DNA of 15,289 bases from NCBI GenBank assembly GCA_015039465.1, contig MU130643.1, forward strand, positions 97,732 to 113,020. Reading direction: 5' to 3'. The position numbers and the translations under genes were made by a program. Positions 2,571-15,289 of this stretch are shown here, piece by piece. This DNA is from Phlegmacium glaucopus (taxonomy: Eukaryota; Basidiomycota; Agaricomycetes; Agaricales; Cortinariaceae). Under the pieces are notes generated by a model. The model made no database searches. It saw only the letters and a list, made by a program, of their open reading frames with translations, and was not told the origin of the DNA. Within the stretch, counting starts at the first letter, position 1. Each line of letters starts with the position of its first letter.

Positions 2571-2741
2571 CGAATGTTGGTGATGACTGCAAGTATCTGC
2601 GATGATCTGCGAGTATTCTGCGATGATCTGCGAGTATGTGCGATGATCTGCGATGACCTGCGATGATCTGCGATGACCTGCGATGACCTGCGATGATCTG
2701 CAAGTATCCGCAATGATATGTGAGCATCCGCGAGTATACTG
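2571..2741. repeat. 10-bp minisatellite (tgcgatgatc family)
   Basis: A tandem array of a 10-base unit, mainly tgcgatgatc and tgcgatgacc. The cleanest run is 2629-2700, with diverged units such as tgcaagtatc and tgcgagtatt at both edges. On the minus strand it is open in more than one frame, giving repeats such as HRRSSQIIA; these are artefacts of the periodic sequence, not a gene. Confidence 0.85.
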
Positions 2742-3094
2742 CAAAGGTTGTGAAACCGCAAAAATGGTGTGTTTACATCCCTAGACATCTCCTGGGTCCT
2801 ATCAACGTGATTTCGCATTAGCTCAATTTTTACATTACTGTTTCGCATATCCACACCTGGTTAGTTTACAACTCTTGTATTAAGTATCCGTAGCAAGTAG
2901 GAGGGAAGGCGAACAAGAGACGGCCAGAGTTTTGATCCCATAAACCTTGCAGCAACATTCTAAGTCAATAAGTCTCATTCTTTAAGCTACTTCGCGTACT
3001 GTGTTATCATTCGCGAACTTCGCTATCTTCGCGGTCTACTCTTCTTGCGTATCTCAATACCGCGAACTTCTCTTTAAAACTCTATCGAGGAAAT

Positions 3095-3152
3095 CTACAT
3101 TAACCCCTCCGAACTATGTTACTACTTGCGGTCTGATCCCACCGCAGGTACA
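3095..3152 (-). repeat. Right arm of long inverted repeat
   Basis: Reverse complement partner of 2079-2134. It ends in cccaccgcaggtaca, only 17 bases before the right end of the insertion. The sequence just inside it, rich in gcgaac and cttcgc words, shows only weak similarity to the sequence inside the left arm. Confidence 0.8.
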
Positions 3153-3169: not shown

Positions 3170-4988
3170 CCAGCCCCCATCATGGCGGCAGTCCATGAAC
3201 ATATTGAGACAATTTCTCTTCAGGAAACACTTGCGAGAAAGGATGCCAAGATGAAACGCAAATACGAGGACCATTTCCCCTTGCGCTTACCTGATACCAC
3301 TACTGATGTCCCCAACCATATCTACCACCGAATTTGTCTGAAGGACCCCAACAAAGCCATCAAGGGCCACAGCTATTCTGCTCCAAAAAAATATCATAAC
3401 TCATGGAAGAAACTCCTTGATGAACACATACTAGCAGGCCGCATATGCGCTTCATCATCAGAATATGCTTCCCCTGCTTTGTGTGTCCCAAAATATTGTG
3501 ATGGGGGCCCTGACCTGTCTGTACCGCCCTGGTGGGTAAATGATTACCAAGGATTAGATGCCAACACCATAAGGGACAATTTCCCCTTACCACATGTAGA
3601 CAATATCTTAGCTGATTGCGCACGAGGCAAGATCTTTGGAAAAATGGACATGACTAATTCATTCTTCCAACATGCGTCCATCCCAACAACATCCATCTTA
3701 CTGCCGTTCGAACCCCTTGGGGATTATATGAATGGACCGTCATGCCAATGGGTGGATGTAATGCACCATCAACTCATCAGCGCCGCATGACTGATGCGCT
3801 GCATGAGCTCATTGGAAAAATCTGCCATGTCTACCTCGACAATATCATAATCTGGTCACAAACAGTTGAAGAACATGAAGTTAATGTTGCCAAAGTACTG
3901 GAAGCACTCCGTAAAGCCAATCTGTTTTGTAATGGTGCAAAAACCACCCTCTTTTCCACCGACATCTCATTCCTTGGGCACAAAATATCCACAGCAGGAA
4001 TACAAGCAGACCCCCGAAAAATTGACCGAATCCTCAACTGGCCACAGCCCACTACTGCAACCAATGTACAAGGCTTCTTAGGGCTCACACGTTACATTGC
4101 TGCCTTCCTCCCTGCGCTTGCCAAACACACCCAGCGTCCTAACACCACTCACCACCAAGGACTGTGATCGAGATTTCCCAGCATGGACGCCCAAACACCA
4201 GAAAGCATTTGATGCGATCAAGGCGTTGGTCACAGGCACTGAATGCCTGACTGTGATCGATTACGAGGACCAGACAAAGAAAATATTTGTGACCACAGAT
4301 GCCAGTGACCGCCGAACAGGTGCAGTTCTGGGTTTTGGAGAAACTTGGGATACTGCACGACCAGTGGCCTCTGACTCATATCAACTGAACGATGCAGAGA
4401 AGAATTACCCAGTTCACGAAAAGGAACTCCTAGCCATCGTCAAGGCTCTCAAGAAGTGGCGCACAAGTCTTCTTGGGACACATTTCAAGATATACACCGA
4501 CCATCGTACCCTCAAATACTTCCAATCTCAGAAAGACATGTCTCGTCGACAAATGCGCTGGTCTATGTATTTAGCTGATTTTGATTACGACATCACATAC
4601 ATCCGGGGAGAAGAGAATACTGCCGTAGACGCCCTCTCCCGCATGCCTGACGCAACGCCGAGTCCCATGTTTGCAGCATGTGCCCTAGCCCACACAAGAT
4701 CCCCAGCTCCACAGCAACAAACAGCCGCCCTTGTGACCTTGGACATCACCGCTGATGAATCCCTGCTCCGGGACATTATTGCTGGTTACCAGGATGATGA
4801 TTTTGCCTAACAGCTGATGAAAGACATCAGGGCTGGTAGCATTGAGGGTGCGCGAAAAGAGAACAACCTCCTATATATTGGTCGTCGGTTACTCATCCCC
4901 AACATACCCCATGTTCGCGAACTCTTCTACAACCTTGCCCACGACACACTTGGCCATTTCGGTTTCGACAAAAGTTATGAGGCGTTAC
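3170..4988 (+). pseudogene. Ty3/gypsy reverse transcriptase, RNase H and start of integrase (broken)
   Basis: Pol polyprotein of the chromovirus. RT motif A is GKMDMTNSFFQ (about 3640-3669), the template-grip region is VMPMGGCNAP (from 3739), and the catalytic box at 3832-3852 reads YLDN instead of YLDD (second Asp codon at 3841-3843 is aat). RNase H shows VTTDASDRRTGAVLG, HEKELLAIVKALKKW and YTDHRTLKYF, then the linker VDALSRMP. The integrase zinc-binding half begins with AHDTLGHFGFDKSYEAL. Breaks: a one-base loss near 3670, a one-base gain near 4128, and a TAA at 4808-4810 where the conserved reading expects Lys (gcc-taa-cag). The next break is the inserted element at 4989. With a mutated catalytic Asp and these breaks, the copy cannot make active enzyme. 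Confidence 0.93.
4981..4988. repeat. Left target site duplication of the hAT-like element
   Basis: ggcgttac here is matched by ggcgttat at 5492-5499, 7 of 8 bases. Eight bases is the duplication length of hAT-superfamily transposons. Removing the element and one copy restores the integrase codons YEALCDSYYW. Confidence 0.8.
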
Positions 4989-9388: not shown

Positions 9389-9457
9389 CCATCCAATGTT
9401 GTCGTCAAACAATTGTGCCGAACGGCCACCTGATGACTTGCCCGAACACAAACCACC

Positions 9458-10819
9458 ATGATAACACTATTATCGACTGGATCGAATGCGCATGGGCAAC
9501 TGGGCAATGGTACTCTGGACGATTCTCACATATTTCAACGTTGTTCTTTCACAAATCACCCACCCAACTCGTTGCCTCGAGGGACTTCAGCCGTTCTCAG
9601 TGTGGTTTCTGGTGCAAACCATACTTTGGTGCTTCTAGAGTCAATTGATCAGTTAGGACTGAAGACGAGGGAATTATGGGGCTGCGGTGACGGACGTTCA
9701 GGTCAACTAGGCAAAAGATACAAGGAAGACACCCTTTCAGGAAGTTCCACGACGAAGTTTAGAAAGATTGATTTGTCTCTCGAGGACTCCGGTCTTTCCG
9801 GCTATTCGTGTCGGCTGATCAGTGCATCTTGGGAGACGAGCTACGTTGTACTATCATGTGCTGGGAAAGGGGACGTTGTAATTTCCATGGGATCTGACGA
9901 CTTTGGAGATCTCGGGGTTGGAGGAGGTTCTTCTACCAGGACTGGAAATCAATCTGCAAAAGATTTTCACGTGGTTAGGTTCGACCATCTTTCTACGCCT
10001 TCAGGTATTCGTATTACCCCTGCTGCTCTTCGAGTAGAATCTATCACTTCGGGTCAACGACATACCATCGTCCATATACAAATATCGGAACCAGTTAGTA
10101 TACCACTATACGTCGGATGGGGGACATCTAGGCATGGCCAACTCGGGCAAGCACCTTTATCCGACTCAAACCGTCCAACATTCACATCACTTCCACGGGT
10201 TATAGAAGTAGATGACATTGTATCATCTGCTCTCGGCATTCATCACAGTCTATTCCTCCACGCATCGTCCGGACAAATATCTGCTCTGGGATCTAATCGG
10301 AAGGGTCAACTCCAGTTATTACCATTGAAAAACGTTCGAAAGATCGGATGTACCTGGAATGGATCTTACGCAGTTGTCGAAACAAATGAAGAAGAATGGC
10401 GTATACATTGTTCAGGTAGCAACTCTCATGGCCAACTTGGATTGAAGACTGACCCACTGAACGCTGATATTCTTGGTTCTGGCGTCGTCTGTTTTTCGGA
10501 AGTCTTCAATTGTAAAAGTACATCTGTCGAAATCGCATGTGGAAGTGAGCACGTATTGGTCCTTTCCCATCGGAACATGGAAGATCGCTTTGTACAACAT
10601 GTATTGTGGGGATGGGGATGGAACGAACATGGGAACCTAGGGACTGGAAATACGGATGACACCCCCCTACCGTTCAAGATTTGGTCAAATGAACCTGACT
10701 TTGGTTCTCGATTCGAAGGAGTGCATGAGTTAATTGGAATTTGGGCTGGCGTCGGTACAAGTTGGATTTGCTGTTCACTCAGCGAGCATTATGGTCGTAA
10801 GTGGTTCTCCATAAAATAA
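9458..10819 (+). CDS. RCC1-repeat beta-propeller protein (Ats1/Kti13-like)
   Basis: Intact 453-residue frame with no introns and a good start context (accATGa). RCC1-type repeat signatures recur through the protein: GSNAHGQLGNG near residue 8, GCGDGRSGQLGK near 75, GSDDFGDLGVGG near 145, GWGTSRHGQLGQ near 225, GSNRKGQLQLL near 280, GSNSHGQLGLK near 320 and GWGWNEHGNLGTGN near 390. Seven repeats would close a seven-bladed propeller. Small fungal RCC1 proteins of this layout resemble yeast Ats1/Kti13, a partner in the Elongator tRNA-modification and diphthamide pathways; this assignment rests on layout, not a search. No Ran-GEF-specific feature stands out. A GTAAGT at 10796 near the stop could be a donor, so a further 3' exon is possible. 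It is the only complete, intact gene in the window. Confidence 0.85.
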   Translation: MITLLSTGSNAHGQLGNGTLDDSHIFQRCSFTNHPPNSLPRGTSAVLSVVSGANHTLVLLESIDQLGLKTRELWGCGDGRSGQLGKRYKEDTLSGSSTTKFRKIDLSLEDSGLSGYSCRLISASWETSYVVLSCAGKGDVVISMGSDDFGDLGVGGGSSTRTGNQSAKDFHVVRFDHLSTPSGIRITPAALRVESITSGQRHTIVHIQISEPVSIPLYVGWGTSRHGQLGQAPLSDSNRPTFTSLPRVIEVDDIVSSALGIHHSLFLHASSGQISALGSNRKGQLQLLPLKNVRKIGCTWNGSYAVVETNEEEWRIHCSGSNSHGQLGLKTDPLNADILGSGVVCFSEVFNCKSTSVEIACGSEHVLVLSHRNMEDRFVQHVLWGWGWNEHGNLGTGNTDDTPLPFKIWSNEPDFGSRFEGVHELIGIWAGVGTSWICCSLSEHYGRKWFSIK

Positions 10820-12203: not shown

Positions 12204-12327
12204 CGTTAATTGCATATCGGATATCTGTTTACGATGCTATTGACCCGTTTCTTGCGTCGTGTCTCGCGATCTGACATCCAAAACAGTTATGTGGTGGAAT
12301 AACGGTCGGTAGAAGAAAGCTCATACC

Positions 12328-12510
12328 ATGAGAGCCTGCCTGAGTCGTTCGTTTGTTTCTCGCACCAGACAAAGTTCTTTCAATTCTGCCCCAGCCATCT
12401 CTGCCCTCTCTCCCGCAACTTCCCTATCTAACACAACCACTTCCAGTCGTTCTTATGCATCAACAAGGCAAATTTCAGGGAGTTACGATTACTGCTATTG
12501 GCACCACTAA
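12328..12510 (+). pseudogene. Mitochondrial-leader-like N-terminal fragment
   Basis: The frame starts MRACLSRSFVSRTRQSSFNS and continues through an Ala/Ser/Thr-rich part to SRSYAST. It is rich in Arg and Ser, without acidic residues in the first 45, and ends with an RSYAS-type processing motif, all typical of a matrix-targeting presequence. After it a neighbouring frame reads KFQGVTITAIGTTKFVL, faintly like the start of a mitochondrial Hsp70 (GIDLGTTNS), but the match is weak. No mature domain follows. The copy at 8787 has the same start with frame damage. Confidence 0.35.
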
Positions 12511-12552
12511 GTTCGTCCTGAAGTTTTGTGGGTTTGGCTTGGAAAGGAAGGA

Positions 12553-12939
12553 TTACGATTCCACGCAACGTTTTTTGAGGTTTCGCATGATTTTCGTGTA
12601 GTGTGCTCGTCGAGCTTCCAGAACGCGGAATTTTACGCATAATGTTGGATCATCGCCTACAGGCTGCGAATTTACTAGACGTCCTCAGTCAAGGATCAAA
12701 AACCCTATTAATTTACGTACCACTGGGAGAGGTGAGGGACCCCTAGAGGCAGGTTTCGCACCGGAAGTAGAGAGACCTATCGAGGGGTTAAACTCAGGGG
12801 TAACGAGGTCCATCCGAGGGCCAATGCATTCGATGGTGTTTTGATTGGTGATTCCTAGCACGGGATATTGGAGTATGAGGAGGAAGAACCGGAATGGAAG
12901 ATTGACGAACAGCGCTGTAGCAAGTGTGAGGTGGTGATG
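12553..12939 (-). pseudogene. Unknown spliced minus-strand frame, copy 2
   Basis: Exon 12939-12721 begins after a cag acceptor. It reads HHLTLATALFVNLPFRFFLL (one hydrophobic, membrane-like segment), then VLGITNQNTIECIGPRMDLV and a Ser/Pro-rich linker ending SPLPV. A 57-nt intron (12664-12720, gtacgt...ttcgcag) joins in phase to CVKFRVLEARRAHYTKIM and a stop at 12553-12555, earlier than in copy 1. The NTIE after a membrane segment recalls the TTxE motif of DHHC palmitoyltransferases. A possible ruined DHHC box (D-H-V-S-R-W) lies near 13120-13100 on this strand, but most key residues are absent. The family is unsure. Confidence 0.3.
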
Positions 12940-13434: not shown

Positions 13435-14854
13435 ATGAAGCGCATCTTCAAGAAAATTATCAATCCCAAGAAATCAAAACATTCGTCTCTAACCATCAAC
13501 GATGCTCTGGGCTCCCCAGCAACTTCGATATCTACCATCAGAGCAAGCACCGCTGATCCCATGCTATCCGTTCCCGCTAATGCTGCGGCTGTAAACCCAC
13601 AATTTATTCAAGTCGCTGGCGTGACTGTGAGTGTTCAACTTCGCCCATCGCATCCTCATGTATTTAACTATCGTCATCGATCAGGCCGCCCATGACCTAG
13701 TCTCTACTTCAGTCTCTGCCCTAGCGATCAATGAGCGGGATGTAAGCATTCCAGTCACCAGCATTACTGTGAGCGTCCAACTTCGCCCATCGCATCCTTA
13801 AGCATCTAACCATCGTCAGCGACCAGACCGCCCATGATCTACTCTCTACTTCGGTTTCCACCTCGGCGATCCATGACCTTGCTCCCGTAAGCATCCCAGC
13901 CGCTGGCGTTAATGTGAGTGTTCAACTTAGTCCATCATATCTATCACTATTCAATCATCATTGTCGATCAGAGTGTCCATGGACTCCAAGTCTCCGCTTC
14001 GGTTTCCACTTCGGCTGTCGCTCCTGTAGCCCATCCGGAAAGAAATTCACCCTTACCTGATGCCGTAATATTGGGATCCATAGAATCGCAACAAAATCCT
14101 TCCGTGAGTTGCTTGCATCATGTGTTCTCGGCTTTCGCTGACGATGATAAGGCTCAACAATCTGTCTCGGGTCTCTTTGCGAATGCCCAGAATATCCTCA
14201 TTACTGGTGGCATTTTTGTAAGTCTTTCTCGTAGGTTGTGTGTACGATTTAGTAATAATTATACATATAGAACATTCTCCCTGCCAATACTAGTGAAGGG
14301 CAGATGAAGATCCCTGTAACTCAAAAGCCCAACTCCAGTCCAATCTTTACTGGACGGAAAGATGTGCTTGATAAACTTGGGAACATTTTTGTTCATCGTG
14401 CTACTGGTAGACTGATGTCAAGGCGCTCTTGCCTCCTCTGGGGATTGGGAGGGATTGGAAAGACCCAGATTTGTCTCAAGTTCATAGAAGAAATGTCTGA
14501 CATGTAAGGGTTCTTACTCTGCCATTCACAACACTGGATTCATTTCTTGATAGTTTTATGCATGTCTTCTGGATTGATGCCTCCTCTCATGAGAGCATGG
14601 AAATGTCTCTCAAGGGCATATCTAGCCTTCCTGCTGCCCAAGAGTCACATGTGGATGGCTCAGTTGAGCCTGTCCTCCAGTGGATATCTTCTCTGCAAGA
14701 AGAATGGTTGATTGTGTTTGATAATGCTGATGATCTTCCTGCAGAGACAGTAGACAAGTTCATTCCCTCATGCAACAGAGGTAATATTCTGATTACTAGC
14801 AGAAACCAATTCATGGGAAGGATTGTATCATTTGGGAACAAAATTGAGATCCAT
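13435..14854 (+). CDS. NB-ARC STAND (NLR-like) protein, 5' part, seven exons
   Basis: Fungal NLR-like signal-transduction ATPase. Exons: 13435-13626, 13685-13768, 13827-13913, 13972-14103, 14152-14217, 14271-14503, and 14554 onward. All introns are GT-AG and join in frame. The start MKRIFKKIINPKK is basic. A Ser/Thr/Val-rich N-terminal region made of repeated exons follows, then LFANAQNILITGGIFNI, a glycine motif common before mushroom NLR ATPase domains. The NB-ARC shows PIFTGRKDVL, Walker A GLGGIGKTQ (14442-14468), VFWIDASSHESM, Walker B WLIVFDNADD (14705-14734) and the sensor-like GNILITSRN. The putative 48-nt intron 14104-14151 is also open and ends in aag, so it may be coding instead. 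The good frame stops making sense after KIEIH (14854). As printed it runs 15 more codons to a stop at 14897-14899, because the following sequence is reversed. Such proteins are thought to act in non-self recognition; the C-terminal repeats lie outside the window. Confidence 0.85.
13627..13971 (+). repeat. Tandem exon-intron duplication in the NLR N-terminus
   Basis: Three introns, 13627-13684, 13769-13826 and 13914-13971, are each exactly 58 nt and are copies of one another (gtgagtgttcaactt...gatcag; gtgagcgtccaactt...gaccag; gtgagtgttcaacttag...gatcag). The exons between them are 84 and 87 nt and encode related peptides (AAHDLVSTSVSALAI... and TAHDLLSTSVSTSAI...). The next exon begins in the same style (SVHGLQVSASVSTSAV). 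The unit is about 142-145 nt. Phase is 0 at every junction, so adding or losing a unit keeps the frame. Confidence 0.88.
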
Positions 14855-15289
14855 TTATTGTATCAAGTACCGGAGAAGTCGTCGTCTAACCTTATATAGG
14901 AATCTTTATAACGATACTACTATCTTTCGTGTATAAACTTCATAATCGTAACGTCGGACCCGACGAACACGTAGTCACCTTACTGGTGGTCGGGAGGAAA
15001 GATAAAGAAACTTTCTTTCTAGGGTTCAGGGTATGTGACAAGATAATATGAAACTACGGGGACACTTAGATCGTAGACTGTAATCTCGGACTGCTACGTA
15101 ACTGTTAACGGAATTTATAACTAGTTATAGTGTAAAGGGTCGGAGTTATATCCGGGGTCGTACTAGTTATCGTTCTCCTTACGTCGGTTCAAGTTAGTGT
15201 TAGTGAGACCGTCGAAGATCTACGAGTCCGTTACCTAGGTTTATTGATCGAAAGTCTTCTTCTCGATATCGTAGACCATGTAGGTAAAG
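14855..15289. other. Mirror-written continuation of the NLR gene (reversed, not complemented)
   Basis: As printed, neither strand encodes anything recognisable. Read from 15289 back to 14855 without complementing, it gives 145 codons with no stop, beginning EMDVPDAIALLLKAS directly in frame after the H codon at 14852-14854. The peptide then shows SYLDPLPEHLEAARVIV, the ARC-type motif ELGCIPLAIDHAGAYIEAG, CDIDQYLRQLSMHRQALMS, YNRTVYGTWDLSFKEI and LQICAFYHHSNISKDIF, the order expected after NB-ARC in mushroom NLRs. The left edge is fixed at 14855 by frame and homology; the right edge is at or beyond the window end. A normal inversion would give the reverse complement, so this is most likely a data error or artificial change. 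Confidence 0.95.

Follow-up and report, generated by a model that had tools for sequence, protein, structure and literature searches.

A gene segment printed in mirror order beside an assembly gap of Phlegmacium glaucopus, probably through a gap-filling fault

The last 435 bases of the DNA analyzed here are written backwards on their own strand. We studied a window of 15,289 nucleotides from Phlegmacium glaucopus (assembly GCA_015039465.1, contig MU130643.1:97732-113020), in which a predicted NB-ARC-like gene continues downstream through positions 14855 to 15289, but with its letters in plain reversed order, that is, reversed without being complemented. The mirrored block reaches precisely from intact sequence to an assembly gap, and we judge it to be an assembly artefact, not a real biological feature. 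We put at roughly 90% the probability that it arose when a gap-filling step partly closed the adjacent N gap and wrote its fill reversed without complementing. A sequence-only reading of the window had already claimed that these end bases are mirror-written, that they restore an open reading frame when reversed, and that neither chance nor inversion could account for them; the evidence bearing on each of these points is laid out below.

Reversed without complementing, the segment translates in frame 1 into 145 codons with 0 stops, in agreement with the earlier count, whereas the printed, reverse-complement, and complement readings contain 6 to 13 stops in each of their nine frames. Random shuffling of the bases left any of three frames open in 4 of 20,000 trials. 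When the reversed 435-base DNA was searched against its own genome, 230 first-look candidates were returned, 40 of which were scored; all 40 match, with 88 to 94% identity and a best E value of 1.7e-193. The same search with the printed order, on both strands, gave eight candidates, all of them matches: the segment itself and seven other places at 82 to 90% identity. In all seven, the matching block fits normally ordered sequence after reversal, and these seven are thus mirror-written themselves. No match of the printed segment, or of its reverse complement, is better than those of the plain reversal. At the protein level, the un-mirrored reading has 543 public protein matches; the best, to P0001, covers 97% of the query at 71% identity, a strong overall similarity. 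Among the matches listed (120 of the 543 public proteins), all 120 span the joint between forward and mirrored sequence, 113 of them without a gap within 8 residues. A plasmid collection searched with the window end gave no match, and that collection is uninformative for a fungus.

We located the two edges of the block separately. When the last 300 forward bases are followed by the reversed block, the alignment runs through the joint in all four paralogues compared (L022 to L025; L numbers denote loci of this assembly), with 93.5 to 95.1% identity. With the upstream 300 bases followed by the block as printed, the paralogue match ends at the joint in 4/4, and in none of the four does a reverse-complement match run past it. 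One of these paralogues, L022, is normally ordered where it aligns and carries mirrored stretches elsewhere in its locus. When the joint position was varied from 14835 to 14879, the best fit fell at 14855 (96.0% identity over 500 bases to paralogue L024), which bears out the earlier statement that forward NB-ARC coding breaks off after 14854. The block had been described as lying at the window end. Its left edge is exact at 14855; its right edge, however, is the start of a run of 7,297 N beginning at the base after 15289, and not a sequence end, since the contig continues to 209,823.

Genomic inversion resembles this arrangement in that part of the sequence runs opposite to what surrounds it. 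Because the two strands of DNA have opposite polarity, however, an inversion yields the reverse complement, whereas here it is the plain reversal that matches. Inversion therefore cannot explain the segment, as had been argued, and the other matches in the both-strand search of the printed DNA are the seven mirrored places described above. A mirror repeat of the H-DNA type likewise shows plain-reversal symmetry within one strand, but it needs both arms, and no forward copy of the block stands beside it: in L009 (the joint and nearest flanks), the reversed block had no match that could serve as a second arm.

A measure independent of homology was obtained from word composition. In double-stranded DNA, a k-mer is approximately as common as its reverse complement but need not be as common as its plain reversal; in five sample loci, with both strands counted, TA occurs 5,408 times versus 7,644 for AT. 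We therefore scored orientation by comparing the frequency of each k-mer with that of its plain reversal, using training loci (L019, L020, L026, L027, and L029) picked for the earlier absence of mirror calls and N. The 5-mer score of the segment is -23.8 as printed and +23.8 when reversed, with similar results for word lengths 2 to 6. The window's remaining 435-base tiles, 34 in number, all score above the printed segment, the lowest at -2.5. Of the background 400-base tiles away from gaps, 41/305 fall below 0 and 2/305 below -10, so that single weak mirror calls are unreliable. Genome matches, paralogue alignments, and the 5-mer score together confirm that the 435 end bases are reversed without complementing.

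The joint interrupts a gene whose translation predicts an NB-ARC-like STAND protein, probably one of the ordinary members of an extensive NB-ARC/TPR family. The ends of the exon that carries the P-loop were placed by eye from GT/AG. On the un-mirrored reading, PF00931 (NB-ARC) scores 17.5 bits against a cut-off of 23.5; in two scanned relatives it scores 40 bits (P0010, which passes) and 23.0 bits (P0001, just below the cut-off), and P0001 carries TPR repeats. With the fungal NB-ARC/TPR (NLR-like STAND) family the predicted protein has in common a P-loop, a core of NB-ARC-like type, relatives whose C-terminal part carries TPR repeats, and very many paralogues in the genome. Nothing unusual was seen in the gene; its TPR part is not within the window and would fall in the N gap. 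The family is very large here, as the number of first-look candidates for a single 435-base piece illustrates, and its size agrees with assembly gaps falling often within it.

Table 1. Features of the window, and of one further locus where its name precedes the coordinates
Feature	Position	Strand	Basis or remark
Mirror-written block	14855..15289	.	Plain reversal, N run directly after; read uncomplemented on the printed strand, from 15289 down to 14855
Predicted exon, normal order	14271..14503	+	P-loop GLGGIGKT at 14442-14465; translation; Pfam AAA_16 and NB-ARC matches, both below curated cut-off
Predicted intron (GT...AG)	14504..14553	+	Inferred by eye from the sequence
Predicted next exon, normal order	14554..14854	+	14854 is the last base before the mirror joint; translation; 4/4 paralogues match up to the joint
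Three direct unit copies	13606-13981		Spacing 142-145 bases, 72-82% alike
RCC1-like protein	9437-10816		Closest among named records listed: Phlegmacium glaucopus, 89%
Repeated segment	8669-9018 and 12209-12554		About 3.54 kb apart; pieces of 60-162 bases, 86-92% identity
Ty3/gypsy-type retrotransposon pieces	252-6742		Matches in several frames: RNase H-like, integrase, chromodomain
Tandem array	2582-2742		10-base unit (10/20/30-base periods)
Mirror-called blocks flanking a gap	L028:2605-3909 and L028:6476-7642		Copia-type pol and gag pieces

The remainder of the window holds several further features (Table 1). Just upstream of the NB-ARC-like exons, the three direct copies resemble an exon-plus-intron unit duplicated in tandem at the 5' end of that gene, the exon reading being our interpretation. 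The repeated segment that flanks the RCC1-like gene on both sides is a local duplication. The nearest named record of the RCC1-like protein, among those listed, suggests that the DNA probably comes from the webcap group. The retrotransposon region, whose first two frames gave no Pfam match, contains the tandem array.

The fault recurs at other gaps. A search of the assembly (60,534,613 bases in 259 contigs) revealed other mirrored blocks of approximately 0.4 to 4.4 kb at left or right gap edges on other contigs, each reversed in place. Their content includes NB-ARC/TPR genes as well as unrelated copia-type retrotransposon pieces. In L012, the gene runs forward past the equivalent of the window's joint and is mirrored from near 3149, with N at 4065; in L015 it also runs forward past that point and is mirrored from near 3646, with N at 4521. 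The turning point from forward to mirrored order thus varies among these paralogues and the window. L011 and L013 have their mirrored block on the right-hand side of the gap, and in L010 a mirrored block of approximately 2.4 kb contains no N at all, which we read as a closed gap.

We tested 20 block boundaries for matches that span the joint. Seven boundaries, representing 6 distinct sites, have such a match after in-place reversal. Four have one in the printed order (three in L017, plus L010 9472), none does after complementing, and 9 lack a spanning match in every reading; the four that the printed order spans were taken as false or doubtful calls of the detector. In-place reversal spans the joint at all homologous gap edges except L016, where the boundary scan gave no resolved position. 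The right joint of L010 gave a spanning match once its boundary was scanned, and the left joint lies in repeats, with its best fit at the border of the scanned range. Sixteen gap edges have a flank of 250 bases or more; 12 of the 16 were labeled mirror, 7 of these 12 having been reached through a mirror match. The four edges labeled normal are both sides of L030, the right edge of L009, and the left edge of L013 (273 bases only). The right edge of L015 is a weak mirror call (-1.3 over the block).

For an estimate that did not start from mirror matches, we sampled fifteen 10-kb places, chosen by hand without regard to mirrors and including three on the window's own contig. They contain three N gaps: L021 and L028 carry the mirror label on both sides, and L030 carries it on none. 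Of the 142,689 non-N bases sampled, 5,004 (3.5%) fall under mirror labels beside gaps, or 5,884 (4.1%) if a doubtful call in a simple-repeat stretch, L017 7889-8768, is included. Two other calls, L010 9472-9901 and L017 3580-4392, were treated as false, as the printed order matches across their borders; the latter also disappeared with another training set, as did L018 8939-10000.

The two blocks at the L028 gap call for separate description. The nearest 400 bases on its two sides score +0.8 and +5.3, contrary to the mirror label, but long frames (284 and 331 codons) occur only in the complemented reading, the other three readings reaching 65 to 97 codons. Only in this mirrored reading do the blocks match copia-type gag (PF14223, 5.3e-12, above the cut-off) and, weakly, a reverse transcriptase (PF07727, 3e-4, below the cut-off). 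The order of the gag and pol pieces fits a separate reversal of each gap edge.

These observations led us to consider how a stretch of sequence could come to be reversed exactly where an assembly gap begins. It is the location of the blocks, at contig edges and N runs, that points to the gap-filling stage, and recurrence at other gap edges, on other contigs, and with other lengths and contents argues for a systematic fault of that stage. The exact joint at 14855 and the exact abutment on N support a fill origin. In our proposal, a gap-filling or contig-extension step would add sequence to a finished contig edge, beside a remaining N run, and the fill would be written in plain reversed order through one half of a reverse-complement operation being either missing or surplus. 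The patch might be delivered as a reverse complement and then complemented only, or it might be delivered forward and then reversed. The former variant would leave patches of the opposite orientation correct and would also fit the normal gap edges, which might equally be edges that received no fill. In the organism itself, the gene would run on without interruption in the ordinary way. Counting against a fill origin are the 4/16 gap edges in normal order, the discovery of 7/12 mirrored edges through the mirror match itself, and the mirrored block of L010, which has no N. The weak call at L015, the positive scores nearest the L028 gap, the joint of L016, and the four boundaries spanned in the printed order count on the same side.

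Two related mechanisms were rejected. Had the whole gap string (left fill, N, and right fill) been reversed as a unit, the block's gap-side end would not continue its own contig, as it does; a net complement without reversal fails because it spans the joint at 0/20 boundaries. Partial fills left by gap-filling programs such as PBJelly are a known kind of misassembly and likewise add sequence to the edge of a contig, next to N that remain, but the fills here are reversed without complement. JGI hybrid fungal assemblies made with ALLPATHS-LG and patched with PBJelly are described in two articles (PMC7550596, PMC12923307), so that patching of this kind is in use for fungal genomes. Our literature search found no description of reversed, uncomplemented gap fills, an absence only as good as the search made, and passages of a comparison of gap fillers (PMC6733440) do not mention such a fault.

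We weighed the fill origin against other explanations. Some other data-handling step, such as a scaffolder, a polisher, or a format conversion, may have reversed stretches as strings; this is unlikely, but it is the strongest of the rivals, given that the gap-filling stage is deduced from position alone and that the mirrored block of L010 has no N. The blocks, however, start at arbitrary points inside a gene and end at N runs, and the reversal is confined to contig edges, a restriction that handling of whole contigs or scaffolds would not produce. The sequence-only reading had left open a string-reversal error or a deliberate alteration of the record. String reversal is supported by its recurrence at gap edges, and it is neither an isolated slip nor an alteration of this window alone. 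Deliberate alteration, for example as a planted test, has nothing in its favor beyond the oddity itself, and the presence of the flaw at many places on several contigs, with differing lengths and contents, makes it very improbable.

A truly mirror-ordered stretch in the organism's DNA, produced by some unknown process, would take the printed sequence at its word, and the pattern does appear at seven other loci. Strand polarity, however, turns inversions into reverse complements, the blocks stop exactly at N runs, their starting points differ between paralogues, and unrelated content is affected alike; we consider this explanation to be vanishingly improbable. Still less can be said for chance, in which an unrelated sequence happens to be open when reversed: the earlier judgment that it is unlikely stands, in view of the identity of the reversal to paralogues (up to 94% over 435 bases, at the best E value given above), the protein match, and the rarity of open frames among shuffles, and for practical purposes this explanation may be dismissed. 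The partial fill written in reverse thus remains the reading we favor.

Mirror-written sequence fails to align to its relatives, yet it would pass contiguity checks. It can also create long spurious open frames; L010 has one that is 337 codons long. Among 7,995 scored public candidates, no relative of that frame appeared, and there is accordingly no evidence here of such frames having been deposited, in this or other genomes. Elsewhere, the fault could be detected simply, by comparing k-mer frequencies with the frequencies of their plain reversals beside N runs, and the value of the finding lies in this warning and this simple test for other assemblies. Tentatively, and with the odds against it, we raise the possibility that the fault extends beyond this genome. 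Some gap-filling tool or pipeline in public release may have written mirrored partial fills, in which case other public gap-filled assemblies would carry mirror sequence at the percent level. Similarity searches would miss such sequence, which would cut real genes short and produce false open frames, chiefly in expanded families rich in repeats. In Phlegmacium glaucopus, the fault breaks genes at gaps, here within the expanded NB-ARC/TPR family.
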